Assembly: GCA_016860845.1 (NCBI GenBank) | Contig: BOKF01000060.1 | Location: 1 to 52,447, forward strand | Source of the DNA: Chloroflexota bacterium | GTDB lineage: Bacteria > Chloroflexota > Anaerolineae > 4572-78 > J111 | Reading direction: 5' to 3' | DNA: 52,447 nucleotides | Notes under the pieces: model-generated | The model's input: the letters and a program-made list of their open reading frames with translations, nothing else | What the model was told of the DNA's origin: nothing | Databases searched by the model: none | Program-made: the position numbers and the translations under genes | Shown: positions 13,256 through 50,836 of the stretch, one piece after another | Layout: the number at the start of each line of letters is the position of its first letter | Position numbering within the stretch: the stretch's first letter is position 1

Positions 13256-14143
13256 ATGAATAGTGAAGAAGTCAAGAATCTCAAACTTGAAATACTGATC
13301 CAGGAGCATTTTGATAACCTGACCAAGAGCGAGAAACGTATTGCTTCTTTCCTGCTCCAAAAACCGGAAGAAGCTGCTTTCCTCTCGATTTCTGAATTGG
13401 CAGCTCAACTTGATCTAAGCGAGGCCACCGCCGTTCGCTTTGCCCAAAGCCTGGGGTTTAACGGCTATCCGGATCTACGCGAGATGCTGCAAGCATCATT
13501 TCGCCACCAAGTCACCCACTCTACCCGTATTAAAGAACGGCTCAGCGAGCTGCGCCAGGACGGCAATATTTTTGAACAATTAGTTGCTTCTGAGATTGAT
13601 TACCTCACCCAGGCTCTGCGCACCGTAGATCGAGCGGCAATCGAGCAGGCGGTTGAGTTGATCAAAAACAGCGAGCGCATCTTTATATTTAGCCTCGGTC
13701 CCTCAATTCCCCTGGTAGATTTGCTTGAGATTCGCCTGACTCGCTTTGGCCGCCACGTCGTTACCATGACGACTACCGGGCGAGAAATCCTGGAACCCTT
13801 GCTCCTCTTAAATAATCGAGATGTGCTCTTTGCCATCGCCTTCTTCACGGCTACCCCTACCCTCAAATTTGTGCTGGACTACGCCCAAAAGGTCGAATGT
13901 CCGGCTGTTTTGTTGACCGATACGCTGGAGCCGGTAGTAGGTGACAAAGCCAGAGTGGTGCTGGCAGCTCGCCGGGGGCCAGTCTCCTCCTTCCATTCGC
14001 TGACCGTGCCGATGACCATCATCAATGCCATCCTCTTGACTCTGGCTCAAACCGACCAGGAGAGAACTTTATCTCATCTCGACCTCCTGGATGAATTAAG
14101 GCGTTCCTACTCCTTTCCTTCGGGGGCAGAGGATAAAAAATAA
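13256..14143 (+). CDS. RpiR/MurR family transcriptional regulator
   Basis: A 295-residue regulator with an N-terminal helix-turn-helix of the RpiR type (LTKSEKRIASFLL, then LSISELAAQLDLSEATAVRFAQSLGFNGYPDLREML) and a C-terminal SIS domain (residues about 130-265). RpiR-family SIS domains bind phosphosugars, which fits the phosphate-ester gene set downstream. It is transcribed from the strong promoter at 13182-13210, which has a palindrome next to it. AAGG lies 9 bp before ATG. It ends 33 bp before the phosphate transporter gene, so the two are probably cotranscribed. The exact inducer is unknown. Confidence 0.92.
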   Translation: MNSEEVKNLKLEILIQEHFDNLTKSEKRIASFLLQKPEEAAFLSISELAAQLDLSEATAVRFAQSLGFNGYPDLREMLQASFRHQVTHSTRIKERLSELRQDGNIFEQLVASEIDYLTQALRTVDRAAIEQAVELIKNSERIFIFSLGPSIPLVDLLEIRLTRFGRHVVTMTTTGREILEPLLLLNNRDVLFAIAFFTATPTLKFVLDYAQKVECPAVLLTDTLEPVVGDKARVVLAARRGPVSSFHSLTVPMTIINAILLTLAQTDQERTLSHLDLLDELRRSYSFPSGAEDKK

Positions 14144-14176
14144 TCAACCTTGCCGGGGGCACTTTCAAGGAAGAAA

Positions 14177-15169
14177 ATGTCACCACTCCTCCTCATCACC
14201 ATCTTAATTATCCTGGCCTTGATTTTTGATTTTCTCAACGGTTTTCACGATAGCGCCAACATTGTCGCTACCATGATTTCTTCAAGGGCTATGACTGCCC
14301 GCGCCGCCTTAACCACCGTCGCCATTGCTGAGTTTGTGGGGCCATTTGTTCTGGGCGTGGCGGTGGCCAAAACTATCGGCACCGAGGTGGCCGCCACACA
14401 AGCCATCACCATTGCCGTCGTTATGGCCGCCCTCATCAGCGCCAGCTTGTGGAACCTCATTACCTGGTACTTCGGCATCCCCTCCAGCTCTTCCCACGCT
14501 CTCATCGGCGGCATTTTGGGTGCGGTCGCCCTCGGTTCTGGCCTGGCCGTTATTCGACCTGAAGGGGTCTGGAAAATCGCTCTGGCCCTATTCATTTCGC
14601 CGGTGGTGGGTTTTGTGGCCGGCTTTCTGATCATGTATGTGACGCTTTTCCTGGCCCGAGGCGCAACCCCCAAAGCCAATATCTTCTTCAACCGCATGCA
14701 AATCCCTACCGCTGTGGCCCTGGCCTTAAGCCACGGCGGCAACGATGCCCAAAAGACAATGGGCATTATTTCCCTGGGGTTGGTGGTGTTGGGTTTTCAA
14801 CCAGACTTTGCCGTACCCTGGTGGGTCATAGTCTTAAGCGCCGCCGCCATTGCCGGCGGAACAGCCACGGGTGGCTGGCGGATTATTCACACCCTGGGTG
14901 GCAAATTTTATCGTATTCGCCCTGTTCACAGTTTTACCTCGCAACTTACTTCGGGAGCCGTGGTGTTGGGCGCCTCACTGCTAGGGGGGCCGGTCAGCAC
15001 GACCCAGGTGGTCAGTTCGGGTATCCTGGGGGTAGGTGCGGCCCAGCGAAAATCTCAGGTACGCTGGGGTGTGATGGGCGACATCGCCGTAGCCTGGATT
15101 TTGACCATCCCCGCCGCCGCTGGCATGGCTGCTCTGCTCTATTTTCCTATCAATTTCTTAGTGGGTTAG
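14177..15169 (+). CDS. pit: Low-affinity inorganic phosphate transporter, Pit family
   Basis: A 330-residue inner-membrane carrier that imports phosphate, usually as a metal-phosphate with protons. Both family repeats are present: DFLNGFHDSANIVATMISSRAMT near the N-terminus and ALSHGGNDAQKTMGIISLGL in the middle, with about ten hydrophobic spans. An in-frame TTG at 14150 is possible, but ATG 14177 follows AAGGAAG and begins directly before the first span. The next gene encodes the DUF47/PhoU-like partner, the usual pairing. In this context it may take up phosphate released by the phosphatases encoded downstream. Confidence 0.93.
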   Translation: MSPLLLITILIILALIFDFLNGFHDSANIVATMISSRAMTARAALTTVAIAEFVGPFVLGVAVAKTIGTEVAATQAITIAVVMAALISASLWNLITWYFGIPSSSSHALIGGILGAVALGSGLAVIRPEGVWKIALALFISPVVGFVAGFLIMYVTLFLARGATPKANIFFNRMQIPTAVALALSHGGNDAQKTMGIISLGLVVLGFQPDFAVPWWVIVLSAAAIAGGTATGGWRIIHTLGGKFYRIRPVHSFTSQLTSGAVVLGASLLGGPVSTTQVVSSGILGVGAAQRKSQVRWGVMGDIAVAWILTIPAAAGMAALLYFPINFLVG

Positions 15170-15179
15170 GTGGTAACTC

Positions 15180-15809
15180 ATGGGTATCAGCATCCCCTTT
15201 AGAAATAAACAAGAAAACAAGTTTATTCAATCGCTGATTGAGCAATGTGAAATCACGGTAGAAGGAATCAAGCTTCTGGAAGTCTGCCTGGACCAACCCG
15301 ACGAGGCCGCCCTGGAAAAAATGAGGGCCAAGGAGTATGAAGCCGACGAAATCCGGCGGATTCTTATTGACGAGCTGCATAATACCTTTATCACCCCCCT
15401 CGACCGTGAAGACATCTTTAACCTCTCGCTGCACATAGACGAGATGATTGATTACGCGCTGACCACGCTGGAAGAAATGGTCCTGCTGAAGGTACAGGCC
15501 GGCGACCACCTTAGAGCAATGGTGTCGCTGGTGCGCCAGGAAGCCGAGGAGTTGACGATGGCCATGCATCGCCTGAGCAGCAACCCCCGCGTGGCCGGCG
15601 ATCATGCCCGCCAGGCCAAAAAGCTGGAAAACGAGGTGGACCATCTTTACCGGGTAGCTGTAGCCGATCTGTTTACCAAGCCTAAAGATTTTAAAGAGTT
15701 GATGGCCATGCTCCGCCGCCGCGAAGTCTTTCGCCACGTCTCCAATATGTCCGACCGGGCCGACGCCACAGCAAATGTGTTTGGTATGGTGGTGATGAAA
15801 TTGACCTAG
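15180..15809 (+). CDS. DUF47 (PhoU-like) Pit accessory protein
   Basis: A 209-residue, almost wholly helical protein of the DUF47/TIGR00153 family. The family segments IRRILIDELHNTFITPLDREDIFNLS and ENEVDHLYR are present; in this PhoU-like fold, acidic residues bind metal clusters. Such proteins are encoded next to Pit transporters and modulate them. The start ATG is 10 bp after the pit stop codon, with AGGTGG in front, so the two are cotranscribed. Confidence 0.92.
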   Translation: MGISIPFRNKQENKFIQSLIEQCEITVEGIKLLEVCLDQPDEAALEKMRAKEYEADEIRRILIDELHNTFITPLDREDIFNLSLHIDEMIDYALTTLEEMVLLKVQAGDHLRAMVSLVRQEAEELTMAMHRLSSNPRVAGDHARQAKKLENEVDHLYRVAVADLFTKPKDFKELMAMLRRREVFRHVSNMSDRADATANVFGMVVMKLT

Positions 15810-15827: not shown

Positions 15828-17261
15828 ATGAAAATTCAGGCTGTTTTTTTTGACATGGGCGGTACCATCGAAACCTTTAACCACACTCATGAATTACGCC
15901 TCCAGGCAACCGCCGACCTGCATAAACTCTTGTTAGAGGCTGGTCTTGACCTCAATCTTGAAGTCGAGCAACTGTACACTGTTGTGACAGAAGGGTTGGC
16001 GCGCTACCATCGCTGGCGTAAGGAATCGCTGGTGGAACTGCCTCCCGCCAGAGTCTGGTCAGAATACATTTTGGCTGATTATCCGGTTGAGCGGGCGCAT
16101 TTGTGTGAGCTGGCAGAATCGCTCTCCCTCTTTATCGAAACCCGGTATTACCAGCGTTCCATGCGCCCGGAAATGCCGGCAGTTCTCGAAGCTATCCAAA
16201 AAATGGGCCTCAAGCTGGGGGTTATTAGCAATTGTCAATCTCTAGGGCTGGTTCCCGGCAACCTGGCTCAATATGGCTTGAAACATTACTTTGACCCGAT
16301 TATCACCTCCTCAAGCTATGGCCGGCGCAAGCCCGATCCCGCCATCTTTCATTACGCGGCCCGGCTGGCCGGTGTACCCACCAGTCACTGCGTGTACGTG
16401 GGCGACATGATTTCTCGCGACATCAGCGGCGCTCGCCGGGCTGGATTCAGCCTGGCCATTCAAATTCGCCATGACGCCAAAGGCGATGATCAAGCGCCGG
16501 AAGGCGTTATCCCTGATATCGTAGTCAACGATATGCGCGAGCTGGTGGATATTTTGGCCGGCGAACTCCAGCGGTCGGCGGCCCACGCTGCCAATGGCCG
16601 AAACTCGCCCCGCCGTTTACAGGCGCTTCTTTTTGATGCCGGCGACATCCTCTATTTCCGCCCGCACAAGCGGCGACGTTTTCACGCCTTTCTCCGGGAA
16701 TTGGGGCTGTCTCAAGCTTCTATTTCGGACAAGAAAGCCAGCCTTCAGACCCAGGCTTTTGCGGGTCAAATGAGCCGGGATGAATATTTGCAAGCCTTGG
16801 TTAGGCTGTATGGTGTGCAAGACCCGCAGCAGGTTGAGCGCGGCGCGCTGATTATGGAGGAAGATGAGAGTGACGTTCAGTTTTTCGATGGCGTTGAAAA
16901 GACGCTGCTGGCGCTCAAGCAGCAAGGTTTTCTCCTGGGGATCATCACCGACACGGCCCAGCCGGTATCGGCCAAGTTGCGCTGGTTTGAGCGAGCCGGA
17001 TTCGGCCATGTGTGGGATACTATTGTTTCCTCCCAGGAGGTCGGCATCTGTAAACCGGAGCCGCAAATTTATGAGGCCGCCTTGCAGCAGCTTGGCGTGC
17101 TACCCAACGAAACCGCCTTTGTGGGCCATGAGGCCGATGAGTTGGATGGGGCCAAGCAGGTAAATTTGACCACAATTGCCTTCAACTATGAGGCTGGCGT
17201 GCAAGCTGATTTCTACCTGGTGCATTTTTGCGACTTATTGAAACTGCCTTTGATTGCTTAA
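15828..17261 (+). CDS. Fused double HAD-superfamily hydrolase
   Basis: A 477-residue protein made of two HAD domains. Domain 1 (1-245) has motif I FFDMGGT with nucleophile D9, motif II GVISN, motif III RRKPD and motif IV YVGDMISRD. Domain 2 (264-477) has LLFDAGD with D270, GIITD, CKPEP, and a motif IV in which GD is replaced by GH (FVGHEADELDGA). In both domains the second Asp of DxD is Gly (G11, G272), as in YihX-like HADs. Domain 2 looks the more degenerate and might be regulatory. AAGGGAGG precedes ATG. It follows the Pit genes directly. The substrate is unknown; a sugar phosphate is plausible. Confidence 0.88.
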   Translation: MKIQAVFFDMGGTIETFNHTHELRLQATADLHKLLLEAGLDLNLEVEQLYTVVTEGLARYHRWRKESLVELPPARVWSEYILADYPVERAHLCELAESLSLFIETRYYQRSMRPEMPAVLEAIQKMGLKLGVISNCQSLGLVPGNLAQYGLKHYFDPIITSSSYGRRKPDPAIFHYAARLAGVPTSHCVYVGDMISRDISGARRAGFSLAIQIRHDAKGDDQAPEGVIPDIVVNDMRELVDILAGELQRSAAHAANGRNSPRRLQALLFDAGDILYFRPHKRRRFHAFLRELGLSQASISDKKASLQTQAFAGQMSRDEYLQALVRLYGVQDPQQVERGALIMEEDESDVQFFDGVEKTLLALKQQGFLLGIITDTAQPVSAKLRWFERAGFGHVWDTIVSSQEVGICKPEPQIYEAALQQLGVLPNETAFVGHEADELDGAKQVNLTTIAFNYEAGVQADFYLVHFCDLLKLPLIA

Positions 17262-18851: not shown

Positions 18852-20687
18852 ATGGAAGTCCCTGTAATGGTTCAGCCGCCTCGGTCTCTGCAAATGCTGG
18901 CCGCATTCAGGAGATTTACCCGCTGGCTGACAAGCGCCAAAGTAATCCTGGCGTTGATCATGTTGGTCATTATGTACTACATGGTCCTGGTCCCTTTATA
19001 TCGGATGGTTGAGACGACCGTGACCTACCAGGAGAGAGATGTGGCGACTATCTCCGGAGCCGAGTTAGGCGAGCTAACCCTTTATCACTGGGCCAGGATG
19101 TTGTCAAGCCGGGTCAGCAAAGTTTATCTGTATGACCCCTTGTTGCATTCGCTGACCATTTCAGGGGGCGCTACCGTTCTGTCACTGACGATTGGCGGGC
19201 TTTTGGCCTGGTTGTGTATCCGCACCGATATGCCGGGCCGAAAGCTAGTTAATCAACTGGCGCTGCTGCCCTACATTATGCCCTCGTGGACCATTGCCCA
19301 GGCCTGGACAGTGATGTTCAAAAACCGGCTGGTGGGCGGCTCACCGGGAATTTACGAGTATCTGCTGGGCCACAGTCCTCCCGACTGGATTTCTTACGGG
19401 CCGGTCCCCATTATCATCAGCAGTGCCCTGCATTATTACACCTTCTTTTTTCTGTTTGTGTCGGCGGCGCTGATGTCCATCGACTCCAATCTGGAAGAGG
19501 CGGGCGACTTGATGGGCGCGAGTCGCTGGCGCATTCTGAGGAAAATTACTTTTCCCCTGGTCATCCCGGCTTTACTGTCGGGTTTTATCATGACCTTTTC
19601 CAAAGTCATGGGGACCTATGGCGGCCCGGCCATTTTAGGCGTGCCGGTTAGATACTACACCGTCTCCACCATGATTCGTTCCAGTATCGGAATTGGCGAT
19701 AAGGCGGATGGGTTTGTGCTGGCTATCACCTTGATCATGTTTGCTATCGTCACCATCTACATCAACCAAAAAGTGATTGGGACGCGCAAGAGTTATGAGA
19801 CGATTGGCGGGCGAGGTTTTGTGGCCCACCAGACCAGGCTGCGTAATTGGAAAGGCGGCCTGACGGCGATTGTGGTCATTTTCCAAATCCTGGTCATTGT
19901 CCTGCCGCTGGGTCTGCTGCTGTATGATACCTTTATGTTAAGATCAGGGATTTACAGTCCCAGCAATTTCACCTTGCATTACTGGATTGGGGAGAGCGTG
20001 CAGAGTATTTCCAATGGGACGCCCGGAGTTCTGCGCAACCCTAAAGTTTATTCCAGCGCCTGGAACTCCATCCACCTCTCGCTTTGGACGGCCTTTTTTA
20101 CCGCCCTGCTGGGAGTTGTTCTGGGTTATGCTATTGTCAAAGGCCGGGGCACCCGGCTGGCCAAACTGGTTGAGCAGTTAGCCTTCATCCCCTATGTGAT
20201 ACCGGGCATCGCCTTTGGCGCGGTCTACATTTCGATGTTTGCCAAACCTTTTGGGCCAATTCCGCCCTTGTACGGAACCTTTGCCCTGCTGGTCATCGTT
20301 TCGGTGGCGAAACACATCCCCTATTCGTCTCGTTCGGGCGTGGCCGCCATGATGCAAGTGGGCCGGGAGCTGGAGGAAGCAGGCGAAGTAGCCGGGGCTA
20401 ACTTCTGGCAGCGCTTCCAACGCCTTATTTTTCCGCTGACCAGCGCCGGCTTTGTGGCGGGATTCCTGCTGACATTTATTACCACTATGCGGGAACTATC
20501 CTTAATCATCTTGCTGACAACCCCTTCCACCGAGGTTCTGTCGAGTTTAACTATGGGTTATAAAGAAAATGGCGACGACCAGATGGCGAATGCAATCATT
20601 ATTATCCTGATTACCCTGGTCGTCATCGGTAACTTTGCCATCGGACGGTTCCGGGGCGGCAGCCTTAAAAAAGGCCTGGGCATGTAA
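18852..20687 (+). CDS. Fused ABC importer permease, Fbp/Afu (Fe3+ / hexose-phosphate) type
   Basis: A 611-residue inner-membrane protein with two permease domains in one chain. Each has its own coupling loop: LEEAGDLMGASRWRILRKIT in the first half and LEEAGEVAGANFWQRFQRLI in the second. About twelve spans are predicted. This fused layout is that of FbpB and AfuB; AfuABC is known to import hexose phosphates whereas FbpABC imports ferric iron. GGAG lies 7 bp before ATG 18852. The ATPase gene follows by 11 bp. The phosphatase-rich surroundings favour a phosphate-ester substrate, by inference. Confidence 0.9.
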   Translation: MEVPVMVQPPRSLQMLAAFRRFTRWLTSAKVILALIMLVIMYYMVLVPLYRMVETTVTYQERDVATISGAELGELTLYHWARMLSSRVSKVYLYDPLLHSLTISGGATVLSLTIGGLLAWLCIRTDMPGRKLVNQLALLPYIMPSWTIAQAWTVMFKNRLVGGSPGIYEYLLGHSPPDWISYGPVPIIISSALHYYTFFFLFVSAALMSIDSNLEEAGDLMGASRWRILRKITFPLVIPALLSGFIMTFSKVMGTYGGPAILGVPVRYYTVSTMIRSSIGIGDKADGFVLAITLIMFAIVTIYINQKVIGTRKSYETIGGRGFVAHQTRLRNWKGGLTAIVVIFQILVIVLPLGLLLYDTFMLRSGIYSPSNFTLHYWIGESVQSISNGTPGVLRNPKVYSSAWNSIHLSLWTAFFTALLGVVLGYAIVKGRGTRLAKLVEQLAFIPYVIPGIAFGAVYISMFAKPFGPIPPLYGTFALLVIVSVAKHIPYSSRSGVAAMMQVGRELEEAGEVAGANFWQRFQRLIFPLTSAGFVAGFLLTFITTMRELSLIILLTTPSTEVLSSLTMGYKENGDDQMANAIIIILITLVVIGNFAIGRFRGGSLKKGLGM

Positions 20688-20698
20688 AGGAGAAAACA

Positions 20699-21787
20699 AT
20701 GGGCACACCCATCACTATCAAGAATCTCACCAAAAATTTCGGCGATGTCATTGCGGTCAACAATGTCAGCCTGACCATTGCCCCCGGAACGTTCCTGACC
20801 CTCTTAGGCCCTTCCGGCTGCGGCAAAACGACCTTGCTGCGCTGTGTAGCCGGTTTGGAAGACCCGGACGAAGGCGAAATTTATATTGGCGATAAGCTGG
20901 TGTTTTCTCACCAGCAAGGTATCTCGCTGCCGGCGGGCAAGCGAGACCTGGGGCTTGTTTTTCAGAACTACGCGCTCTGGCCCCATATGACGGTTTACAA
21001 AAATATGATCTTTGCCCTGGAGGTCCAAAAACTGCCCAAAGTCGAAATGGATAAACGGGTCAAAGAGTCCCTGGCTGAAGTGCAAATGGAAGGGTATGAA
21101 GACCGCTATCCGCGTGAGATGAGCGGTGGGCAGCAGCAGCGGATCGCCCTGGCCCGGATGCTGGCCTACCGGCCCAAGGTCTTTTTGATGGATGAACCCC
21201 TCTCCAACCTGGATGCTCGCCTGCGCATGGATATGCGGGCCGAACTCAAACGCCTGCACTTTGTTTCCGGGGCGACCACTATCTATGTTACCCACGACCA
21301 GGTGGAGGCCCTGACTATGTCATCCAATATTGCGGTGATGAAGGACGGGGTTCTGCAGCAACTGGATACCCCCGACCGTGTTTACCGCTACCCGGCCAAT
21401 CTGTTTGTGGCCGATTTTATCGGCAACCCCAAGGTAAATTTATTGGATGGCACGGTGAGTGAAAGGGATGCGGTTGATTTTGGCAAGTTTAGAGTTCCCC
21501 TCGACACGCATAACGCGAATGGAGAAGTGGTCGTCGCCGTCCGGCCGGAAGATATTGCCATTTTGACGGAACCCGCCCCGGAAACGGTGGAGTTCACCGC
21601 CTATTCCGTTTTGCCGGCTGGGGCCGACTCCACCATCCTGGCTCGTCTGGAAGATCTGGAAATCACCGTCAAAGTTATGGGCATTAGCCCGATCAGGATG
21701 GACGACAAGATTTGGCTGAAATTCAATCCTCAAACATTGAACCTATACGACAAAATGAGTGGCGGTTTGATTAACTCGAAAAACTAG
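20699..21787 (+). CDS. ABC importer ATP-binding protein (FbpC/AfuC/PotA class)
   Basis: A 362-residue ATPase with Walker A GPSGCGKTT, Q-loop QNYALWPH, signature MSGGQQQR, Walker B VFLMDEPLSNLD and switch TIYVTHDQ. A C-terminal TOBE-like region (residues about 240-355) is typical of MalK/FbpC-type importers. AAGGAG precedes ATG. It is 11 bp after the fused permease gene and must energise it; it could in principle also serve the CUT1 permeases upstream, which lack an ATPase. A miniature element separates it from the binding-protein gene. Confidence 0.93.
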   Translation: MGTPITIKNLTKNFGDVIAVNNVSLTIAPGTFLTLLGPSGCGKTTLLRCVAGLEDPDEGEIYIGDKLVFSHQQGISLPAGKRDLGLVFQNYALWPHMTVYKNMIFALEVQKLPKVEMDKRVKESLAEVQMEGYEDRYPREMSGGQQQRIALARMLAYRPKVFLMDEPLSNLDARLRMDMRAELKRLHFVSGATTIYVTHDQVEALTMSSNIAVMKDGVLQQLDTPDRVYRYPANLFVADFIGNPKVNLLDGTVSERDAVDFGKFRVPLDTHNANGEVVVAVRPEDIAILTEPAPETVEFTAYSVLPAGADSTILARLEDLEITVKVMGISPIRMDDKIWLKFNPQTLNLYDKMSGGLINSKN

Positions 21788-21805: not shown

Positions 21806-21965
21806 TTAGTGACAGTAGTTACACGGTGAGCCTAACCATGTCATTTCGACCGGAGCGGAGCGGAGGGAGAAATCCCTAATGCCGCCTCTTGCCAAAGACG
21901 TTTCGAGGGATTTCTCGCTCCTATCGTCGCTCGAAATGACACGACCGCGTAACTCCTGTTAGTGA
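21806..21965. mobile_element. Miniature inverted-repeat element A with 7-bp target duplication
   Basis: Element at 21813-21958 (146 bp). The left end CAGTAGTTACAC and right end GCGTAACTCCTG are inverted repeats with two mismatches. An inner pair GTCATTTCGA / TCGAAATGAC can extend the stem. It is flanked by the direct repeat TTAGTGA at 21806-21812 and 21959-21965. No coding capacity. It is inserted inside the ABC operon between ATPase and binding protein. Confidence 0.75.
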
Positions 21966-22054
21966 AAGGAGGGAAAGGGAAAAATCACAGGAGACGAGAA
22001 GATTGTTTCAAAGGTTTCGTTTCAACTATCTTACTGACTCGTATGGAGGAAGAA

Positions 22055-23365
22055 ATGACGGCGTTGATAAAGATTTTGGCGCTATGTTTGTTGGTCACTT
22101 TTATTGCCGGCTGCGGCGGCGCAGCGCCCGCGGCCCAACCGGCTGAACCCGCCCAGCCGGCCGAAGCTCCCGCCGCAGCAGCTACTGAAGAGGTCAAGCC
22201 GGTGGAAGCTCCCGCCTCGGCTGCCACCGAAGAGGTCAAGCCCGCCGAAGCGGCTGCGCCTGCCGCACCGGCCGGACCCGTTTGGACTGCGGAAGACGAA
22301 GAATGGCTAAAGTCTGCGGAACTGGACAAGTTTGCACCGGCCAAGCAGGATTGGGCCGCCATCGAGGCCGCGGCCAAGAAGGAAGGGGTGGTGGTAGTTT
22401 ATGCCAACTCTTCCCGCATTGAGAAAGAAATCGACCTATTCCAGGAAAAATACCCGGATATCAAACTTGAAGGCTATGATGTGGATGACATCGTCACCAA
22501 AGTGACCGAAGAGCAAAAAGCCGGGAACGTGGTGGGAGATGTCTGGTTCAACAGCGATGGAGCCCAGTTCTTTGGGGAAGTATATCCCAATGGCTATGTG
22601 GTGCCGTTTGTCCCCGATACCCTGCTCGACGTGATCCCCGCCGAGTACCGCAATCCGTTTGTGGTTTCACGTCAAGGGGTTCGCGCCCTGGGCTACAACA
22701 CCGAGCTAAACCCCAAGGGCTGCCCCATCACCAACTGGTGGCAGTTGACCGAGCCGGAGTGGCAAGGGAAGATCTTTATCGAAGATCCACTGGATGATGT
22801 CAGCACAATGTCTATCCTGACCTCCCTGACCCAGCATGGCGATGAATTTGCGGCTGCCTATAAAGAATATTACGGCAAGGACCCCGTTCTGGATGAGGAT
22901 ACGCCGGATGCCTCCTGGCTGTGGCTCAAAAAGTTTGCCCAGAATGGCCCCGTGCCCGAACCCGGCGGCGATGAGACCGTCCAGGCTTTTGCCTCCCCGG
23001 GGATGAAGGAAGCCGGGGTTGGCTTCACCTCCTATTCCAAATATCGAGACACATTAGACGGCGAACTGGTCTTTGATGTCTGCAAAGATGTCAAACCGGT
23101 CATGGGGGTGCAGACATCCACCTATCTGGCAATCACCAAGCGCGCTTCCCATCCCAACGCGGCCAAGTTGTTCATTAATTTTGTGCTCAACGAAGGCTTT
23201 GAACCCTGGAACGTAATTGGCGATTACTCCGCCCGAACCGATGTGCCTGCCCCCGAAGGCGCTATTCCGAGAGGTGAATTGAATGTCTGGACCATGGATG
23301 ATGCCTATGTTTACAAAAACATCAGCCAGGTACGCGATTTCTGGACTATCAATTTCCTGGACTAA
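22055..23365 (+). CDS. ABC importer binding lipoprotein, Fbp/Afu family
   Basis: A 436-residue extracytoplasmic binding protein. A signal peptide with lipobox (FIAGC) gives a lipid-anchored mature protein. An Ala/Pro/Glu linker with the near-repeat ATEEVKP follows, then a family 1/Fe-type binding domain from about residue 95 (AIEAAAKKEGVVVVYANSSR). An upstream in-frame ATG at 21962 would start inside the mobile element's flank; ATG 22055 with GGAGGAAGAA in front and a proper signal peptide is clearly better. No evident Tyr pair for iron binding could be assigned by eye. Partner of the 18852 and 20699 products. Confidence 0.9.
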   Translation: MTALIKILALCLLVTFIAGCGGAAPAAQPAEPAQPAEAPAAAATEEVKPVEAPASAATEEVKPAEAAAPAAPAGPVWTAEDEEWLKSAELDKFAPAKQDWAAIEAAAKKEGVVVVYANSSRIEKEIDLFQEKYPDIKLEGYDVDDIVTKVTEEQKAGNVVGDVWFNSDGAQFFGEVYPNGYVVPFVPDTLLDVIPAEYRNPFVVSRQGVRALGYNTELNPKGCPITNWWQLTEPEWQGKIFIEDPLDDVSTMSILTSLTQHGDEFAAAYKEYYGKDPVLDEDTPDASWLWLKKFAQNGPVPEPGGDETVQAFASPGMKEAGVGFTSYSKYRDTLDGELVFDVCKDVKPVMGVQTSTYLAITKRASHPNAAKLFINFVLNEGFEPWNVIGDYSARTDVPAPEGAIPRGELNVWTMDDAYVYKNISQVRDFWTINFLD

Positions 23366-23422: not shown

Positions 23423-23516
23423 AATCAAAATATACTCAAGAACAGGCAGGAAATGTTCGTGAGTAGATTGACGCTGCCCAGCTACGGGAGGCATGGGCAG
23501 GAGAAAGGTGAAACTA

Positions 23517-24266
23517 ATGAATCAAAAAGTCGAAGCCATTTTTCTCGACGTTGGCAACACCCTGCGGATTGTGGTGGAAGATGAGCCGTTCACCGCCCAG
23601 GCCAGACAACAACTGATGACTCTGGTTGGAGTGCAAGAACCGCTTGAGCCTTTCTTTGAGAAACTGGACCAAAGGTGGAAAGCTTACCGGAAATGGTCCT
23701 TTGAGAATCTAACCGAGGCTTCCGAGAAGGAATTGTGGACTCGCTGGCTGCTGCCCGATTTCCCGCCCGAAGAGATAGCGCCGCTGGCCGGCCAATTGAC
23801 CCGGATGTGGCGCGACAAGGACGGGCGGCGCGTTCCACGGCCCGATGTTAAGCAAACGGTGCTGGAACTGAGCCAGCGCGGTTACACCCTGGGGATTATC
23901 GCCAACACCATCACCGAAACGGAAATCCCCGACTGGCTGGAAGCGGATGGTCTCACCGCTTACTTTAAGGCGGTCGTTCTTTCTTCTAAAGTCCAATATC
24001 GGAAACCGGGGCCGGAGATCTATTGGGAAGCGGCCAGCCGGATCAACGTCGAACCGGATCGCTGCGCCTACGTGGGGGATAATCCTATCCGCGATGTCGA
24101 GGGAACCCGGCGGGCCGGCTTTGCCATGACCATCATCCTTTTGGATGGAAATGAGGGTAAGAAAAGATCACCTTCGGAGGAGATCAAACCTGACCGAATC
24201 ATTCACGCGTGCAGTGAACTCCTGGATATTTTTCCACCCCGTGGGTCGTGGTTGCCAAGTAAGTGA
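23517..24266 (+). CDS. HAD-superfamily hydrolase (tandem copy 1)
   Basis: A 249-residue HAD phosphatase. Motif I is FLDVGNT, where the usual second Asp is Gly; motif II is LGIIANT, motif III RKPGPE and motif IV YVGDNPIRD. The helical cap holds the conserved YRKWSFENL and ELWTRWL segments. AAAGGTG lies just before ATG 23517; an in-frame ATG at 23493 is less likely. It is closely similar to the next gene, so it is a tandem duplicate. A sugar-phosphate phosphatase acting on cargo of the adjacent importer is a reasonable inference. Confidence 0.88.
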   Translation: MNQKVEAIFLDVGNTLRIVVEDEPFTAQARQQLMTLVGVQEPLEPFFEKLDQRWKAYRKWSFENLTEASEKELWTRWLLPDFPPEEIAPLAGQLTRMWRDKDGRRVPRPDVKQTVLELSQRGYTLGIIANTITETEIPDWLEADGLTAYFKAVVLSSKVQYRKPGPEIYWEAASRINVEPDRCAYVGDNPIRDVEGTRRAGFAMTIILLDGNEGKKRSPSEEIKPDRIIHACSELLDIFPPRGSWLPSK

Positions 24267-24363: not shown

Positions 24364-25098
24364 ATGAAGGATAACATCGAAGCGATCTTTTTAGACCTGG
24401 GCAACACTCTGAGGTTTCTGGTAAAAGATGAAGCCCACCAATCCCGCGCCCGGCAGAAGATTACCGAGCTGATCGGAACTGCCGAGGACCCCGCCGTCTT
24501 CTGCGAAAAGCTGGATGCTCGCTACAAGACCTACCGCAAATGGGCCTTCGAGAATATGATTGAAGCGCCCGAAGCAGAACTGTGGACTCGCTGGCTGGCG
24601 CCGGAGTTTTCCGCCGAAAAGATCGCGCCGCTGGCGGTGGAACTAACCTATCAGTATCGCCAGTCAATGGGGCGGCGGGAGGTTCAACGTGACGGCCGGG
24701 AAGTGATTGTTGAACTGCGCCGGCGCGGCTATACCCTGGGAATTATCAGCAACGTCATTGGATCGCGTGAAATCCCTGCCTGGCTGGAGGCAGATGGTTT
24801 CGCCCCCTATTTTAAATCGGTGCTTCTTTCTTCCATTTTCGGACGCCGCAAGCCCCACCCGGAAATTTATCTCGAAGCGGCCCGCCGGGCCGGCGTCAAA
24901 CCGGCGCGGTGCGCCTACGTGGGCGACAATCTTAAACGCGACGTGACGGGCACGCGGGAGGCGGGTTTTGGCATGTCCATCATTCTAATCGAACCAGCAA
25001 AGCTAGAGAAAGAGCCGCCCACGGATGAAAACAAACCCGACCGGGTTATCCACGAATTCAACGAACTTTTGGATATTTTTCCGGCCCGCCACCGGTGA
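24364..25098 (+). CDS. HAD-superfamily hydrolase (tandem copy 2)
   Basis: A 244-residue paralogue of the previous gene, sharing YRKWAFENM, ELWTRWL, RRGYTLGIIS, WLEADG and CAYVGDN. Motif I is FLDLGNT (nucleophile Asp kept, second Asp replaced by Gly), motif III is RRKPHPE and motif IV is VGDNLKRD. The long open frame upstream to 24145 overlaps copy 1 and is not used: ATG 24364 starts the HAD fold in register with copy 1. Duplication followed by divergence may have widened the phosphate-ester range. Confidence 0.88.
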   Translation: MKDNIEAIFLDLGNTLRFLVKDEAHQSRARQKITELIGTAEDPAVFCEKLDARYKTYRKWAFENMIEAPEAELWTRWLAPEFSAEKIAPLAVELTYQYRQSMGRREVQRDGREVIVELRRRGYTLGIISNVIGSREIPAWLEADGFAPYFKSVLLSSIFGRRKPHPEIYLEAARRAGVKPARCAYVGDNLKRDVTGTREAGFGMSIILIEPAKLEKEPPTDENKPDRVIHEFNELLDIFPARHR

Positions 25099-25213: not shown

Positions 25214-26800
25214 ATGCTGACCAACTATCTCACGCGCGGCGGCATTGCCCTGGCAGATGCCGTTAAAGAGTTATACAACGAGGGACAGACGGATTATTGG
25301 CTTGAACCGATGGTCGTGATGGACGGGCAAGGGGAAGCCATCGGTTGTATCGAAGATGGTGATGCCGTCATTTTTTGCTGCCGCCGTGGCGAGCGCGAAA
25401 TCCAGCTAACCGAGGCATTTGTCGAACCGGAGTTTGATCGTTTTCCTCGGTGCAATTTTCAAAATCTCATCTTCGTAACTTTGACCCTGTATCACGAAAA
25501 GTTCAAAGACCTGCCGGTTGCTTTTGCCCCGGCAAAAATTAAGGACACCCTCGGCGAAATTGTCAGCCGGGCCAACCTGCGCCAACTGCGGACCGCCGAA
25601 TCTGAAAAATTTGCCCACGTCACCTTTTTCTTCAACGGCGGCAGCAACCAACCGTTTGCCGGCGAAGACGATGTCCGGATTCCTTCGCCCAAAGGGATTC
25701 CTTTTGATCAGGTGCCGGAACTGAGCCTGCCCCGGGTGACTGAACAAATTCTACACGGTCTTGACCAGCGGTACGATTTGATCGTGACAAACTTTGCCAA
25801 CGGCGATGTGATTGGTCACACTTCGAATAGCCAGGCTAAGATCAAATGCGCCGAAGCGGTGGACCTGCGGCTGGGGCAGGTGGTCAACGCCGCGCTTGCC
25901 GCTGGCTATGTGGTTCTGGTGACCGCCGATCATGGCATCCTCGAACTATCAACCAATCCCGATGGAACGCCTAATGTGGCCCATACAACCAACCTGGTGC
26001 CGTTCGTTCTGCTTGACCCCCGTGGGACAGTCCCGGTTAACCTGCGCGACGGCCAACTGGCCGATCTCGCCCCGACGGTTTTAGAGGCGCTTGGCCTGGC
26101 CCAACCTGCTACCATGGAGGGCGTGACTCTTGCGCCAGGGTATGATTGGGACGGGCAACGGCGGGTACTGCTTATCATTGTTGATGGGTGGGGAATCGGC
26201 CGGGATGATAACTCGAATCCCATCTTTCTGGCCCAAACCCCGGTCTGGGATGATCTGCTTCGCCGCTGCCCGTGCGCCCGCTTGCGGGCCTCCGGCGAAG
26301 CGGTTGGGCTGCAAGCGGGCAAACCCGGCAACTCCGAAGCGGGGCATACGAATATCGGGGCCGGACGCGTGGTGCTGCAAGATGATGTGCGTCTCGACCT
26401 GGCCATGAAGGATGGTTCTTTCTACACCAATGAGATCCTTTGCCGGGCGATCCAGGAGGTCAAGCAGCGCAACACCCGCCTCCACTTGGTTGGCCTGTTG
26501 ACCGAAAAAAGCTCGCATGGGTCCATTGACTATCCGCTGGCGCTGCTGCAAATGGCTAAAGCCAGTGGTTTAACCAATGTTTACCTGCACCTCATCTTTG
26601 ATGGGCGAAGCACCGAGCCGGGCAGCGCCCCCGCCCTGCTGGAAAAGTTGGAGAGCCGGATGAGAGAAATTGGGGTGGGGCAAATTGTTTCCGGCGTGGG
26701 GAGAGGCTATGCCCTCGACCGGGATGGAACCTACAGCAAAACCCAGCGCGCCTACGACGCCTTTGTGTTTGGCGTTGGGAAAAAGTGCATCGCGAATTGA
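25214..26800 (+). CDS. Circularly permuted cofactor-independent phosphoglycerate mutase (iPGM)
   Basis: A 528-residue protein carrying all parts of GpmI in swapped order. Residues 11-305 match the usual C-terminal half: R58/R61, K132 in AESEKFAHVTFFF, D198 and H202 in NFANGDVIGHT, D239-H240 in TADHG, H257 in AHTTN. Residues 316-520 match the usual N-terminal half: D324 in IIVDGWG, nucleophile S374 in GNSEAGH, H435, R465, R497, R503. The old C- and N-termini are joined by a short linker (VTLAPGYDWDGQRR), and the new ends lie in the loop after YDAFVFG. The Asp that normally follows R465 (DGRD) is Ser466. The family interconverts 2- and 3-phosphoglycerate with Mn2+. AAGGAG precedes ATG. Activity is likely but unproven; another phospho-substrate is possible. 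Confidence 0.92.
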   Translation: MLTNYLTRGGIALADAVKELYNEGQTDYWLEPMVVMDGQGEAIGCIEDGDAVIFCCRRGEREIQLTEAFVEPEFDRFPRCNFQNLIFVTLTLYHEKFKDLPVAFAPAKIKDTLGEIVSRANLRQLRTAESEKFAHVTFFFNGGSNQPFAGEDDVRIPSPKGIPFDQVPELSLPRVTEQILHGLDQRYDLIVTNFANGDVIGHTSNSQAKIKCAEAVDLRLGQVVNAALAAGYVVLVTADHGILELSTNPDGTPNVAHTTNLVPFVLLDPRGTVPVNLRDGQLADLAPTVLEALGLAQPATMEGVTLAPGYDWDGQRRVLLIIVDGWGIGRDDNSNPIFLAQTPVWDDLLRRCPCARLRASGEAVGLQAGKPGNSEAGHTNIGAGRVVLQDDVRLDLAMKDGSFYTNEILCRAIQEVKQRNTRLHLVGLLTEKSSHGSIDYPLALLQMAKASGLTNVYLHLIFDGRSTEPGSAPALLEKLESRMREIGVGQIVSGVGRGYALDRDGTYSKTQRAYDAFVFGVGKKCIAN

Positions 26801-26813
26801 CGGAGGTATTTCC

Positions 26814-26939
26814 GTGGATTTCAAAATTGAATTTGGAGAACACGCCTGTGGGCGCGGTAGTCTTGGCGTCTTGCCGGCAAAAGATGTGATACCGCTGGCG
26901 TTGGCCAATGCGCGGTGTATTGCCAAGTTCGGGGTGTAA
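26814..26939 (+). CDS. Small hypothetical protein, 41 codons
   Basis: A GTG-started frame with an excellent GGAGG (26802-26806) seven bases upstream, 13 bp after the mutase stop. The product begins DFKIEFGEHACGRGSLG and ends ANARCIAKFGV. I do not recognise it. It may be a genuine small protein or the truncated start of a larger enzyme lost by deletion. Its position in a dense operon and its good ribosome site argue that it is at least translated. Confidence 0.45.
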   Translation: MDFKIEFGEHACGRGSLGVLPAKDVIPLALANARCIAKFGV

Positions 26940-26975: not shown

Positions 26976-28202
26976 ATGTCCGCCTCAAACCCTTTAGCCA
27001 GTCCAGATGTTTTTTCAGAGAAACTGTACGAGAAAATGAAGCAGATTAATCCCGGCATAGAGGATTTGGAACTTTATGAATTCCGCTATGCGCTGGGCCA
27101 TCTCTCGCCCAAGCATGACGATTGGGTTTCTATCGTCCTGGCGGATAAGGAGGAGATTGACCAGCGCTTGAGCCAGATTGATTTCTATCACAGCATTAAA
27201 CTTAAACCATGCGTTGACGGCAGAATTGTATTAGATGAAACCATTATTTCGCTGACCAATATGCTGTTCGTTGGCCTGGTGACAGGAAAATACCCGGTTG
27301 AGTGGATCAACCAACGCTTTTACTTTGATATCAGGGGATTTCATTTTTTCATTCGGACGCTTTATTTCACCGATAAAATTCTGACCCACCTGGGTGGTCG
27401 GCCATTTAAGTGTTTTGAACAGAAACAAAAACAATTGGAGCGGCATCAATCGCTGGGCTACAAAGAATTCAGGAAAGCAAATGCCGAAGTGGATCAATAT
27501 TTTATGACCAGCGTCAAGCAAATTATTGCGGTCAAAGGGACGCCCATGATCATGGCTATTGCTGGGCCTACGGCGGCAGGCAAAACCGAAATTGTTGAGC
27601 GGCTGCGTTGTTCCTTTAAGCAGGAAGGCCAAGATGTCACTTCCATCGAAATGGACCACTTCTTCACCGACCGGGACTATCGGGAAGCGAAGGGTATTCA
27701 TTCGCTGGGCAAAGCGGCTATCCATTTTGAGCTTTTTAAACAGTGTCTGGAAGACATCAGCCAGGGCAAAAAGATATGTACGCCCCGCTACGACTTTGTT
27801 TACGCTACCTCCAGCCACGACCTGGACGGCCGCTTAAAGCCCGGCTGTGCCCCCATTGAGATTGAACCGGCCGACATCATTTTTATCGAGGGCAATTTCC
27901 CCTTTCTTCTGCCGGAAGTAATTCATTTGATTGGCCTCAAAGTAGTTTACCTGACCGATGACCCTATCAGACTCAAAAGGAAGTGGAAGCGCGACGTTGA
28001 TTATCGCAAGAAATATGATCCTAACTACCTGCGCAACCGTTTTTTTAGAAACCAATTTTTGATGGCCGAGAAATGCTATCTGCCGCAAATGGAAGTGTGT
28101 GATCTGGTTGTTGATACGACCGGCGCAGCTTTGTGGGCTACACCAGAGATGGCTGCCATCCTACAAGGCCGTTACGAAACCGCAGCACATCCTCACCGAT
28201 AA
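26976..28202 (+). CDS. P-loop kinase (uridine kinase/phosphoribulokinase-like) with unknown N-terminal domain
   Basis: A 408-residue protein. Residues about 190-400 are a P-loop kinase of the uridine kinase/PRK group: Walker A AGPTAAGKT, SIEMDHFFTDRDY after it, YDFVYATSSHDLDGR, and an IIFIEGNFPFLL strand. The first 185 residues (acidic, with KHDDWVSIVLADKEEID and WINQRFYFDIRGFHFFIRTLYF) match no domain I recognise. The reaction is likely ATP-dependent phosphorylation of a small hydroxyl compound. AAAGG precedes ATG. It lies among sugar-phosphate genes. The nucleoside alternative is possible but the context gives no support. Confidence 0.75.
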   Translation: MSASNPLASPDVFSEKLYEKMKQINPGIEDLELYEFRYALGHLSPKHDDWVSIVLADKEEIDQRLSQIDFYHSIKLKPCVDGRIVLDETIISLTNMLFVGLVTGKYPVEWINQRFYFDIRGFHFFIRTLYFTDKILTHLGGRPFKCFEQKQKQLERHQSLGYKEFRKANAEVDQYFMTSVKQIIAVKGTPMIMAIAGPTAAGKTEIVERLRCSFKQEGQDVTSIEMDHFFTDRDYREAKGIHSLGKAAIHFELFKQCLEDISQGKKICTPRYDFVYATSSHDLDGRLKPGCAPIEIEPADIIFIEGNFPFLLPEVIHLIGLKVVYLTDDPIRLKRKWKRDVDYRKKYDPNYLRNRFFRNQFLMAEKCYLPQMEVCDLVVDTTGAALWATPEMAAILQGRYETAAHPHR

Positions 28203-28212: not shown

Positions 28213-28350
28213 TGACTACTGTCTACTGATCACTTGTGTGTCTACTATTTCTAAAGGAGTCGTCACGAGCCTGCGGCACCCCACCAACAATGAAAACGTT
28301 ATTCTGACTACTGGCTACTGACGACTGACTACTATTTTGAAGGAGTTAAT
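28213..28350. repeat. Duplicated leader with GACTACTG words
   Basis: CTGACTACTGTCTACTGATC...CTACTATTTCTAAAGGAGT (28212-28261) is repeated in altered form at 28304-28346 (CTGACTACTGGCTACTGACG...CTACTATTTTGAAGGAGTT). Each copy ends in a ribosome-binding sequence, but only the second is followed by a start codon. Confidence 0.55.
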
Positions 28351-28351
28351 T

Positions 28352-29272
28352 GTGCTTAACATCGCCTTATCCACCATGTGGGGTATCGGCCGTTATCAAA
28401 ATCTGGCCGATTTTTTCAGCGCCGGCGCAAACCTGGGCTTCACTTGTTTTGAGCTGAATCACAAGGTTACTTCGGCTATGTTGGAGTATGTAAATTTGCC
28501 AGCCTACCATTTCCCCAGCGTGCATGAACCGTGTCCGGCGGATATTGCCGTGAGCGAGCTCAAGGCGCGTAATTGGTTTATCTCCTCACCCCGTGAAGAT
28601 GAACGCACCCTGGGCGTCACCGCTGTCCGGCATAGTATTGACTTGGCCCAGCAGCTTGGCGCGCAAGCTGTTGTGGTGCATCCCGGTAAAGTTGATATGG
28701 ATGAGTCGCTGGAAAAAGTCTTGCGCGACCTCTACCGAGCCAACCAGGCGGGCAGCCCTGAATTTGCCGAAGCCAGTGAGCGATTAGCTGCCGCTCGCTC
28801 CGACCAGGTCGAGATCAACCTGCGTGCAGTGCAGCGCAGCCTGGTTGAATTGGCCCGATATGCCGGTTCCAGGGGTATCCGGCTGGGCTTGGAAAATCGT
28901 TTTCACTACTACGAAATTCCCCTGCCCGACGAGCTTGAATTTCTGCTGGCTCAAAAGTATGAGGGCGAGGTAGGTTTCTGGTATGATGTAGGTCACGCTC
29001 ATGTTTTAGAGCAGTTGGATCACTGCCCCCACGAGGGGTGGCTGCGCCGTTTCGCCGGACGTATGGTTGGTGTCCATCTGCACGACGTGATTGGCCTGAA
29101 CGATCATCGCGCCGCCGGGTTAGGCCAGGTAGACTGGAAAATGGTAGCGGCCTATCTACCGAAAAATATTCTGTGCACCTGTGAATTTCAAAATGATAAT
29201 ACGCCAGAGCAGGTAGCCCACGGCCTGCGTTTTTTAGCTGAAAAGGTACTTGGAGTTGACGGAAATGAATAA
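28352..29272 (+). CDS. Sugar phosphate isomerase/epimerase-like TIM-barrel protein
   Basis: A 306-residue protein of the xylose-isomerase-like TIM-barrel (AP endonuclease 2) fold. Metal-binding landmarks are VVHPGK, GIRLGLENRF, WYDVGHAHV and MVGVHLHD, which supply the usual His/Glu/Asp set. An in-frame TTG at 28337 overlaps the ribosome site, so GTG 28352, 6 bp after AAGGAG, is the start. Its end overlaps the PfkB gene by 8 bp. Isomerisation or epimerisation of a sugar or sugar derivative before phosphorylation by the PfkB kinase is the natural inference. Confidence 0.85.
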   Translation: MLNIALSTMWGIGRYQNLADFFSAGANLGFTCFELNHKVTSAMLEYVNLPAYHFPSVHEPCPADIAVSELKARNWFISSPREDERTLGVTAVRHSIDLAQQLGAQAVVVHPGKVDMDESLEKVLRDLYRANQAGSPEFAEASERLAAARSDQVEINLRAVQRSLVELARYAGSRGIRLGLENRFHYYEIPLPDELEFLLAQKYEGEVGFWYDVGHAHVLEQLDHCPHEGWLRRFAGRMVGVHLHDVIGLNDHRAAGLGQVDWKMVAAYLPKNILCTCEFQNDNTPEQVAHGLRFLAEKVLGVDGNE

Positions 29273-30161
29273 CCTCTATGACATCGCCCTGTTGGGCCAT
29301 TACACCAAAGACACTATTGTTTCCGCGTCAGGCACCAGGCTAGTGGATGGTGGAGCTTTTAATTATGGCGCGCATGTGGCTGTCCGCATGGGTTTAAATG
29401 TTGCCGCCATCACTCGCCTGGTGGAAGAAGATCGCCACGTAATTGATGAACTTACCCGGCTTGGGATAGATGCCTTTGTTCAGTATAGCCCCTATTCCAC
29501 CTGCCTGCGGTTGGAATACCCCACTTCCAATTTAGACAAACGCCTCATCTACGTCACCAGTACCGCTGGAGCTTTTACTCCTGTGGAAGTCGAACCGGTG
29601 CAGGCGCGGGCCTTCCTGGTAGGTGCGTCCATGCGAGGCGAAGTTAGTCTGGAAGTGATCGAGGCCCTGCGGCGCAAAGACACCCTGCTGGCTGTTGATG
29701 TACAGGGTTTTGTACGAGTAGACCGTGAAGGGCAGTTGGTCTATGAAACCTGGCCGGAGATGCACCCGGTACTGGCCTGTGTGGATGTGCTCAAAACCGA
29801 CGCCGTCGAAGCCGAGATGCTCACCGGGCAGCCCGATATACACCAGGCCGCCCGGATATTGGCCGATTTGGGACCGCGGGAAGTTGTGCTGACTCATCGT
29901 AATGGCCTGCTGGTTTATGCTGACGGCCAGTACTATGAAGCGGGCTTTTTCCCCTGCAAGTTAGTAGGCCGGAGCGGCCGGGGAGACACCTGTATTGCCG
30001 CCTACACGGCCAAGCGCCTCAGCGCATCGCCCGCCGAAGCCACTCTCTGGGCAGCGGCGTTGACCAGTTTAAAGATGGAAGCTGAGGGGCCTTTCAAAAG
30101 GGAAATAGGTGCGGTTGAAGAACTTATCGGCAGCATGTACCAACCCCTGGGTCAAAAGTAA
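29265..30161 (+). CDS. PfkB family carbohydrate kinase
   Basis: A 298-residue ribokinase/PfkB-fold kinase. GGAFNYGAHVAVRMG is the N-terminal substrate signature region, and GRSGRGDTCIAAYTAKRL near residue 240 is the second PfkB signature, with the anion-hole GRGD carrying the catalytic Asp. An in-frame TTG at 29250 is not needed: ATG 29265 overlaps the previous stop codon (ATGAATAA), as expected for coupled genes. It is the last gene of the plus-strand phosphate-ester region and nearly touches the convergent EamA gene (3-bp gap). Confidence 0.9.
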   Translation: MNNLYDIALLGHYTKDTIVSASGTRLVDGGAFNYGAHVAVRMGLNVAAITRLVEEDRHVIDELTRLGIDAFVQYSPYSTCLRLEYPTSNLDKRLIYVTSTAGAFTPVEVEPVQARAFLVGASMRGEVSLEVIEALRRKDTLLAVDVQGFVRVDREGQLVYETWPEMHPVLACVDVLKTDAVEAEMLTGQPDIHQAARILADLGPREVVLTHRNGLLVYADGQYYEAGFFPCKLVGRSGRGDTCIAAYTAKRLSASPAEATLWAAALTSLKMEAEGPFKREIGAVEELIGSMYQPLGQK

Positions 30162-50194: not shown

Positions 50195-50836
50195 TTAGCG
50201 ATTCCAGCGCAGCCGCAGGGCGAGGCCGCCGGCCAGCAGAATCAGGCCCAGAGCCATCGCCGCCGCCAGCAGGTAGATATTCGCCGGGATGTCGCCGCCG
50301 GTCGCGGGCAGAGCGGCCGGGGCGGCCTCCGCCGGGGGCAGGAGGACGGTGTCAATGACGTGAATGACGCCGTTGGAAGTCTCGATGTCGGTGATGATGA
50401 CCTGGGAGTTGTCATTGAGGAAGACATTGCCGCCATCGACCTTGATCGAAACAGGCAGACCGGCGACGGTATCAGCCGAGGTCAACTTGACGACATCGGC
50501 GGCCATGACCTTGCCGCTGACGACGTGATAGGTCAAGACCCGGGTCAGTTCATCCTTGTCGGCCAGGAGGCTGTCCAGGGCGCCGGCGGGGAGCTTGGCG
50601 AAGGCGTCGTCGGTGGGGGCGAAGACGGTGAAGGGGCCAGGGCCTTTGAGGGTGTCAATGAGGCCGGCTGCGGTCAGGGCGGTGGCCAGGGTGGTGAAGC
50701 GGCCATCGGCCACGGCGGTATCAACGATGTCGGATGTAGCTTGCTTGGGCGGCGCTGCCAAAGCCTGGGTTACGCCGACGACCAGCAACAAGACAACCAG
50801 GACCAGCGGTACAAACTTTTTGATAGGACTAAACAT
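50195..50836 (-). CDS. Secreted fasciclin-domain protein with LPATG-type anchor
   Basis: A 213-residue surface protein. The signal peptide is residues 1-28, and one FAS1 domain spans 34-168 ([60 protein letters not shown]). Then LPATGGD at 176-182, a hydrophobic span and the tail RLRWNR follow. This is the layout of a sortase substrate. FAS1 domains mediate adhesion. AAGGAG precedes ATG. The FAS1 DNA is almost identical to parts of the neighbouring fasciclin gene (51015-52447), including long exact stretches. Confidence 0.95.

Follow-up and report, generated by a model that had tools for sequence, protein, structure and literature searches.

Natural circular permutation of a cofactor-independent phosphoglycerate mutase relative, encoded in a conserved HAD/kinase/transporter cluster that points to inositol-phosphate metabolism

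We describe a relative of cofactor-independent phosphoglycerate mutase (iPGM, GpmI) in which both parts of the classical enzyme are present and complete, but swapped, within a single chain. The gene of this protein (cpPGM; positions 25214-26800, plus strand) is located in a 52,447-nucleotide contig of a Chloroflexota bacterium, the whole of which is referred to below as the window. This permutation of iPGM is real, old and widespread and has apparently not been described, and the conserved neighbourhood of the gene points to inositol-phosphate metabolism.

The open frame encodes 528 amino acids and starts with an ATG codon preceded by AAGGAG. When the protein was compared with PDB sequences using phmmer, residues 15-306 (25256-26131, plus strand) aligned with positions 218-508 of the 1ejj chain (222.7 bits), a block that we take to be the second part of the transferase domain together with the main part of the phosphatase domain. 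Residues 316-523 (26159-26782, plus strand) aligned with positions 4-211 (162.4 bits), and the gap between the aligned blocks (residues about 307-315; 26132-26158, plus strand) constitutes the linker between the old C- and N-termini. The GpmI profile TIGR01307 matched in two stretches whose sum, 496.3 bits, passes the equivalog cut-off of 330.65, and the best Pfam stretches place Metalloenzyme (105-296) before iPGM_N (396-524). The collinear order expected of GpmI, i.e. N-terminal phosphatase part, transferase, C-terminal phosphatase part, is absent. All three analyses agree with the first-pass annotation, made from the letters of the sequence, which had read the halves of iPGM as reversed in one frame. 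An AF2 model, which superseded a poorer one built from 29 close sequences (pLDDT 71.9), has a first-block fold matching that of iPGM; Foldseek and VIA preserve chain order, so that a single block of the model aligns. The model fits a location of both old termini in the phosphatase domain, given the usual domain limits of iPGM. In the permuted chain, the two parts into which canonical iPGM divides its phosphatase domain would be continuous, and the new chain ends would be carried by the transferase domain.

It is extremely improbable that the swapped order reflects an assembly chimera or a misread frame. The same order occurs in cultured isolates (L010, L040, L077 and, as one match spanning 1-523, L073), in a chromosome record (L003), in the other kept loci and in a second, divergent family. 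The permutation is no artefact, as a chimera is contradicted by these independent assemblies. A search for homologues yielded at least 120 proteins with 72-99% identity over 93-100% of the query. By motif, the order is swapped in 118 of 121 sequences (the query plus 120 listed homologues), while the pattern missed three, none of which is canonical. Moreover, a genome scan revealed 257 loci encoding relatives. Eighty of these were kept and read, and related genomes proved to share the order: it is swapped in all 74 complete frames extracted by script from the kept loci (for five of the other six the script identified no start codon, and the sixth was cut off). What the first-pass annotation had treated as a single curiosity therefore belongs to a large and conserved family, designated here family I.

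According to their record titles, the 80 kept loci come from Anaerolineae/Chloroflexota, Clostridia, other Bacillota, Spirochaetales and an Actinomycetes MAG, largely bacteria of the rumen, gut, digesters and sediments. Among the carriers of a family I gene are isolates of Levilinea saccharolytica, Oscillibacter valericigenes and Butyricicoccus pullicaecorum, in addition to the chromosome record. Two stretches of viral contigs matched a pattern and neither encodes a relative. In a plasmid collection, 44 records had matches, all below 60% identity; of the eight that were listed, seven are annotated as gpmI and one carries no annotation.

In a sample of 150 genomes from the class of G001 (an Anaerolineales MAG), seven contain a family I gene, seen as a single match of 976-1070 bits, and eight contain a divergent permuted homologue (family II, 451-529 bits). 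A search started from one family II protein retrieved at least 120 more (P0122-P0241), of which 118 are swapped by motif and two were missed; two among those listed are named Anaerolineae. Family II shares with family I the permutation, the SSHGS and RGERE motifs and all metal residues, and differs from it in GRRGE (with Gly at the place of Asp154 of iPGM), SFYSSHGS and, mostly, FYDIRGERE. GRRGE replaces DGRD in the family II loci L119, L120 and L122-L126 (G038, G033, G042, G025, G069, G119 and G022); the motif script was unmatched on L119 and L121, though the class sample places family II genes there. Among the neighbours of family II genes in six of the eight fetched regions no shared phosphate cluster was found. 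In L123 and L125 a gene that by eye resembles histidine phosphatases directly follows the family II gene.

A tree was built from reordered sequences of 23 family I proteins (7 of the 121 listed proteins and 16 of the 80 loci), 20 family II proteins (14 of the 120 listed, taken at random, and 6 of the 8 fetched regions) and 15 canonical ones, with no later removal of any of these. One branch parts permuted from canonical sequences (SH-aLRT 99), and families I and II each form one group (100). Each half taken alone gave the same permuted/canonical split (SH-aLRT 99 and 100), with a program warning of long branches meeting in the N-half tree. The canonical sequence C_L087, which has a very long branch, was left out of the half trees and of the active-site counts given below. 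The most economical account is one old permutation, followed by a split into families I and II. That the change went from canonical to permuted is suggested by how widely the canonical form is distributed.

The places of 15 active-site residues of iPGM were taken from the phmmer alignment with 1ejj, with the numbers and presumed roles usual for iPGM. Fourteen of the 15 are identical in all sequences compared (23 of family I, 20 of family II and 14 canonical); all 14 residues that the first-pass annotation had placed were placed correctly, and it was also right that Ser466 stands where iPGM has Asp154. The protein retains 7/7 of the residues that we take to form the two-metal site and the serine nucleophile (D12, S62, D403, H407, D444, H445, H462), and 7/8 of the presumed substrate residues (H123, R153, D154, R185, R191, R261, R264, K336), having lost only D154. 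Five arginines (R153, R185, R191, R261, R264) are kept in 43/43 permuted sequences examined. In the reordered alignment, the exceptional position (codon 26609-26611, plus strand) is Ser in 23/23 family I, Gly in 20/20 family II and Asp in 14/14 canonical sequences, and S466 is invariant in 85 aligned family I members. Asp154 is presumably the acid/base for the substrate hydroxyl; a literature search for this residue together with phosphoglycerate mutase found no paper.

A second difference, seen in the motif scan and the alignments, concerns residues 430-437 (26501-26524, plus strand), which read TEKSSHGS in place of the canonical SDGGVHSH. Within family I, K432 is found in 22/23 sequences and S433 and S434 in 23/23, where canonical enzymes have G, G and V. 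Family I additionally has C55-C56-R57 and Y28. DGRST is present in 73 of the 74 complete frames from kept loci; the KSSHGS pattern was unmatched in 54 of the 74 rows and hence was not used as a count. By comparison, seven canonical GpmI proteins from the same genomes all keep DGRD, six of them with SDGGVHSH and one with a near form of it.

The cpPGM gene is surrounded by genes on the same strand. Upstream lie genes for an RpiR-type regulator (13256-14143; Pfam HTH_6, with SIS below cut-off), a PiT-type phosphate transporter (PHO4; 14150-15169), its DUF47/PhoU-like partner (15180-15809; TIGR00153 below cut-off) and a double HAD protein (15828-17261; motif I is DMGGT in the first half and, by eye, DAGDI in the second). 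These are followed by an ABC permease (18852-20687; two BPD_transp_1 stretches, PhnU2-like at 166.5 bits, below cut-off), an ABC ATPase (20699-21787; UgpC/PhnT2-like, below cut-offs) and a solute-binding protein (SBP; 21962-23365; SBP_bac_11 by Pfam), and then by HADa (23493-24266; motif I DVGNT) and HADb (24364-25098; DLGNT). The nearest solved relatives of the SBP are iron-binding proteins, a weak likeness (E 3e-7) that lends no support to inositol phosphate. Downstream are a P-loop kinase of the PRK/uridine kinase family (26976-28202), with about 190 extra N-terminal residues lacking a Pfam match, a xylose-isomerase-like TIM barrel (28337-29272; weak IolE score of 22.5 vs a cut-off of 290) and a PfkB kinase (29265-30161) related by alignment to the PPi-dependent inositol kinase TM0415. 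Between the cpPGM and P-loop kinase genes, a 34-codon stretch (26832-26933, plus strand) is 65% identical to the ApgM-type mutase gene product of the relative L021; it is likely, judging from this similarity, to be a remnant of a lost apgM gene, which many relatives carry in that gap. In several Anaerolineae loci two copies of the P-loop kinase gene flank apgM. At the far end of the window, repeated fasciclin-like domains were recognised by eye on the minus strand (51015-52370 and 50195-50836).

The conservation of this cluster was assessed in 81 sources (the 80 kept loci plus the window), using the window neighbours and one ApgM as queries; flanks in the loci are limited to 8 kb per side and are often truncated by the end of a contig, and all the following counts are subject to this. 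HADb was found in 73 sources, HADa in 67, the double HAD in 40, PfkB in 37, the ABC ATPase in 32, the SBP in 26, the permease in 25, ApgM in 22, the P-loop kinase in 21, RpiR in 19, the TIM barrel in 4 and DUF47 in 2, and the PiT, MFS and PDE queries matched the window alone. In wider stretches of the Anaerolineae loci L162 and L168, DUF47 and PiT are present near cpPGM as well; the PiT-DUF47 pair (14150-15809 in the window) may export phosphate freed from the substrate. With Clostridial queries, H+-pyrophosphatase and MgtC were each detected in 22 sources and PfkB again in 37. Two further genes recur upstream of the HAD genes in Clostridia (L040 915-2447 and similar loci): one encoding a small membrane-like protein (by eye, without Pfam match; 16/81 sources) and one for an MBL-fold protein (ComEC-like, below cut-off; 5/81).

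HAD phosphatases typically have a second Asp two places after the motif I Asp. All 190 HADs found by pattern, in 74 of the 81 sources, have Gly at this place (DxGx[TSVI]), and the pattern itself allowed any residue there. An intended control, in which the same pattern was run on 400 kb of G001, returned zero HADs, and a PDB alignment of HADa stopped short of motif I. The HADs of the cluster may be phosphotransferases, or may use another acid/base.

The PfkB kinase of the window is closest to TM0415 (E 1.5e-45 to 5e-44), carries 5/5 residues of its PPi signature (K171, F221, R229, R232, M266) and has the RXGRGD motif, and is thus predicted to be a PPi-type kinase; the kinase of L051 has four of the five residues. 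The accessible text of PMC5931981 describes TM0415 as a PPi-dependent inositol kinase with these five signature residues and the RXGRGD motif, and reports that the homologue from Levilinea saccharolytica forms inositol monophosphates from PPi, not from ATP or ADP. For both enzymes, the same text doubts whether the true acceptor is inositol. The PPi-type PfkB, together with the H+-PPase in 22/81 sources, suggests a PPi economy.

A link with inositol is provided by relatives in which genes of inositol catabolism adjoin cpPGM. The cluster of L019 has an adjoining iol operon, with IolG (384 bits, cut-off 355), IolB (317, cut-off 205) and IolD (915, cut-off 715). In L067 a gene for IolG (429 bits, cut-off 355) is directly downstream of cpPGM, and iol genes over cut-off stand beside it also in G004, G007 and G017. 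In Levilinea (L174) the genes iolB-tal-iolD-iolG-iolE-iolG2-HADa-HADb-cpPGM are placed on one strand, where tal is transaldolase-like and one extra frame separates iolG from iolE; in this genome IolB, IolD and both IolG proteins exceed their cut-offs and IolE is below it (203 vs 290). An Eubacteriales MAG (L159+L160) carries transketolase halves, iolE-like, iolB-like, iolD and iolG-like genes, an ABC importer and HADs, then cpPGM, MgtC, H+-PPase, PfkB and a TIM barrel; every mapped gene has the same orientation, unmapped frames separate some of them, and IolD alone is over cut-off.

In quantitative terms, an iol match at E 1e-20 covering >30% of the query was present in 11/81 sources, several of which are close relatives. 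In 8/20 genomes the contig with cpPGM also encodes an IolG over cut-off no more than 25 kb away, vs about 0.3 expected at random, an expectation that treats genomes as independent; the figures for adjacency and co-occurrence are inflated by relatedness among the genomes. IolD exceeds its cut-off in 11/20 genomes, including all nine of Bacillota and Spirochaetales, and does not reach it in the other nine; IolB is below cut-off in the nine Bacillota and Spirochaetales genomes. Among 150 genomes of the G014 family, IolD was found in 3/3 with a family I gene vs 1/147 others (Fisher p 7e-6), and in the class sample of G001 IolG showed no association (4/7 with family I vs 68/143 without, p 0.71). 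Within the window no iolB, iolE or iolG match was detected at E 1e-10, and 1576-2568 gave a general Gfo/Idh match only (21-23% identity). As the window contains no recognised iol gene, the inositol link of its organism is drawn from relatives.

The hosts also encode other phosphoglycerate mutases. In 20 genomes hand-picked from the 80 kept loci, 16 contain a known type over cut-off outside the cpPGM cluster: canonical GpmI in seven, GpmA in seven others and ApgM away from the cluster in two (G003 and G005). In G010 the ApgM of the cluster is the only other mutase. No other mutase over cut-off was detected in G001, G015 (1.0 Mb) or G016, and G001 has only a part of ApgM below cut-off. Because 16 of the 20 hosts hold another mutase and cpPGM lies in a conserved HAD/kinase/transporter cluster, which in some relatives adjoins iol genes, it is likely to be non-glycolytic.

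The explanation we favour, tentatively, is that cpPGM is a metal-dependent phosphotransferase acting on inositol phosphates in a conserved HAD/kinase/transporter cluster, and not an enzyme of glycolysis. The retained residues predict metal-dependent phosphoserine chemistry; from the context we infer an inositol phosphate as substrate, and mutase rather than phosphatase chemistry. Ser374 would take the phosphate from an inositol phosphate, and the phosphate would return to a neighbouring hydroxyl inside a closed cavity lined by the conserved arginines; such a mutase step could, for example, shift the phosphate to a position on which the HADs or the PPi-dependent inositol kinase could act. With Asp154 gone and Lys432, Ser433, Ser434 and Ser466 gained, there would be space for a ring substrate with further phosphates, an extra one of which would be held by Lys432 and the serines. 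The kept iPGM arginines count against the inositol reading, since a phosphoglycerate enzyme would need them. Unlikely in its entirety is a broader version, by which one ancient permutation gave rise to a new enzyme class, an inositol-phosphate mutase, in a pathway by which anaerobes take up and break down inositol phosphates, store the phosphoester energy as PPi and spend it on proton pumping by H+-pyrophosphatase. There, the PPi-dependent inositol kinase would run backwards, helped by HADs without the usual second aspartate.

Three other functions have to be considered. It is possible, though somewhat unlikely, that cpPGM is a phosphatase of the same inositol-phosphate cluster, in which the phosphoserine is released to water in a cavity opened by the permutation and the loss of Asp154. 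The absence of this presumed acid/base from both permuted families speaks for such a function, as do the many HADs and, in some hosts, the adjoining PiT, which suggest phosphate release; the five arginines kept in all permuted sequences examined would however be unneeded by a plain phosphatase. That the protein is still a phosphoglycerate mutase, i.e. a permuted isozyme for glycolysis or gluconeogenesis, we consider decidedly unlikely. Such an isozyme would account for the 14 retained active-site residues, the passing of the TIGR01307 cut-off (by the sum of two stretches), the three genomes without another mutase over cut-off and the company of ApgM, itself of a phosphoglycerate mutase family, in 22/81 loci. 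Against it stand the loss of D154 in every member examined, while the seven co-resident canonical GpmI proteins keep it, the further mutase outside the cluster in 16/20 hosts, and neighbours that are HAD, kinase and PPi genes, joined in some hosts by those for inositol. The first-pass name of phosphoglycerate mutase holds as regards a permuted iPGM fold; as regards the role, the invariant S466, the other mutases and the neighbourhood mean that family I is probably misnamed as glycolytic. Highly unlikely is a substrate among other polyphosphorylated small acids, e.g. 2,3-bisphosphoglycerate or cyclic 2,3-diphosphoglycerate. The latter occurs in methanogens, which share anaerobic habitats with the hosts of cpPGM, and both the kept arginines with the gained Lys432 and serines and the rumen, gut, digester and sediment origin of most hosts would agree with such a substrate, which leaves the iol genes and the inositol-type PPi kinase unexplained.

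Many of the listed homologues are named 2,3-bisphosphoglycerate-independent phosphoglycerate mutase in their source records, a naming that probably arises from the summed scores of the two swapped stretches. Because of it, reconstructions of glycolysis for Anaerolineae and gut Clostridia may count the wrong gene. The permutation found here, a natural one in a textbook enzyme family, comes with two diverged active sites and numerous homologues, and makes the relation of chain order to function testable in a two-domain mutase. If the inositol-phosphate role is true, bacteria of the gut, rumen, sediments and digesters would have an intracellular route for organic phosphate that has so far gone unrecognised, possibly with a pyrophosphate-based energy gain.

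The first-pass annotation knew of no natural permutation of this family, and we found none described for iPGM in the open-access papers searched. The main text of a 2010 paper on bacterial phosphoglycerate mutases contains no word starting with "permut". In the sections available of PMC2876114, permutation is named in glutathione synthetase and not in a mutase. Published descriptions of a comparable cpPGM/HAD/inositol cluster were absent, as far as their accessible text extends, from the best matches of a literature search. Dephosphorylation of phytate before uptake and inositol gene clusters are described in the accessible parts of PMC7618129 and PMC12482443, whose main texts do not contain the term "ABC transporter".

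Several known systems resemble that described here. The Thermotoga maritima operon TM0411-TM0416 shares with the window an inositol context and a TM0415-related PfkB kinase with the same five PPi residues, and differs in that no relative of phosphoglycerate mutase is mentioned for it in the accessible text of PMC5931981. ApgM (TIGR00306) belongs, like cpPGM, to the alkaline-phosphatase superfamily and is encoded in the same locus in 22/81 sources; it is, however, non-permuted (residues 16-389 of the L006 copy run along 1-402 of TIGR00306) and has another domain, PF10143. A natural circular permutation in a phosphomutase is reported, in the text accessible to us, for PGM3 of the alpha-D-phosphohexomutases (PMC5570346); that enzyme is of another superfamily, and its permutation involves about 60 residues within one domain. 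The accessible text of PMC5382265 presents iPGM as two domains with two hinges between them. The closest system remains GpmI (TIGR01307; PDB 1ejj, 4nwj), with which cpPGM has in common both domains, the metal site, the serine nucleophile and seven of the eight substrate residues, its mean identity to 14 canonical iPGM sequences after reordering being 41.5%. Unlike GpmI, cpPGM has swapped segments with new ends inside the transferase domain, Ser in place of Asp154, TEKSSHGS in place of SDGGVHSH, and a conserved neighbourhood of HAD, kinase and PPi genes, to which some hosts add genes for inositol.
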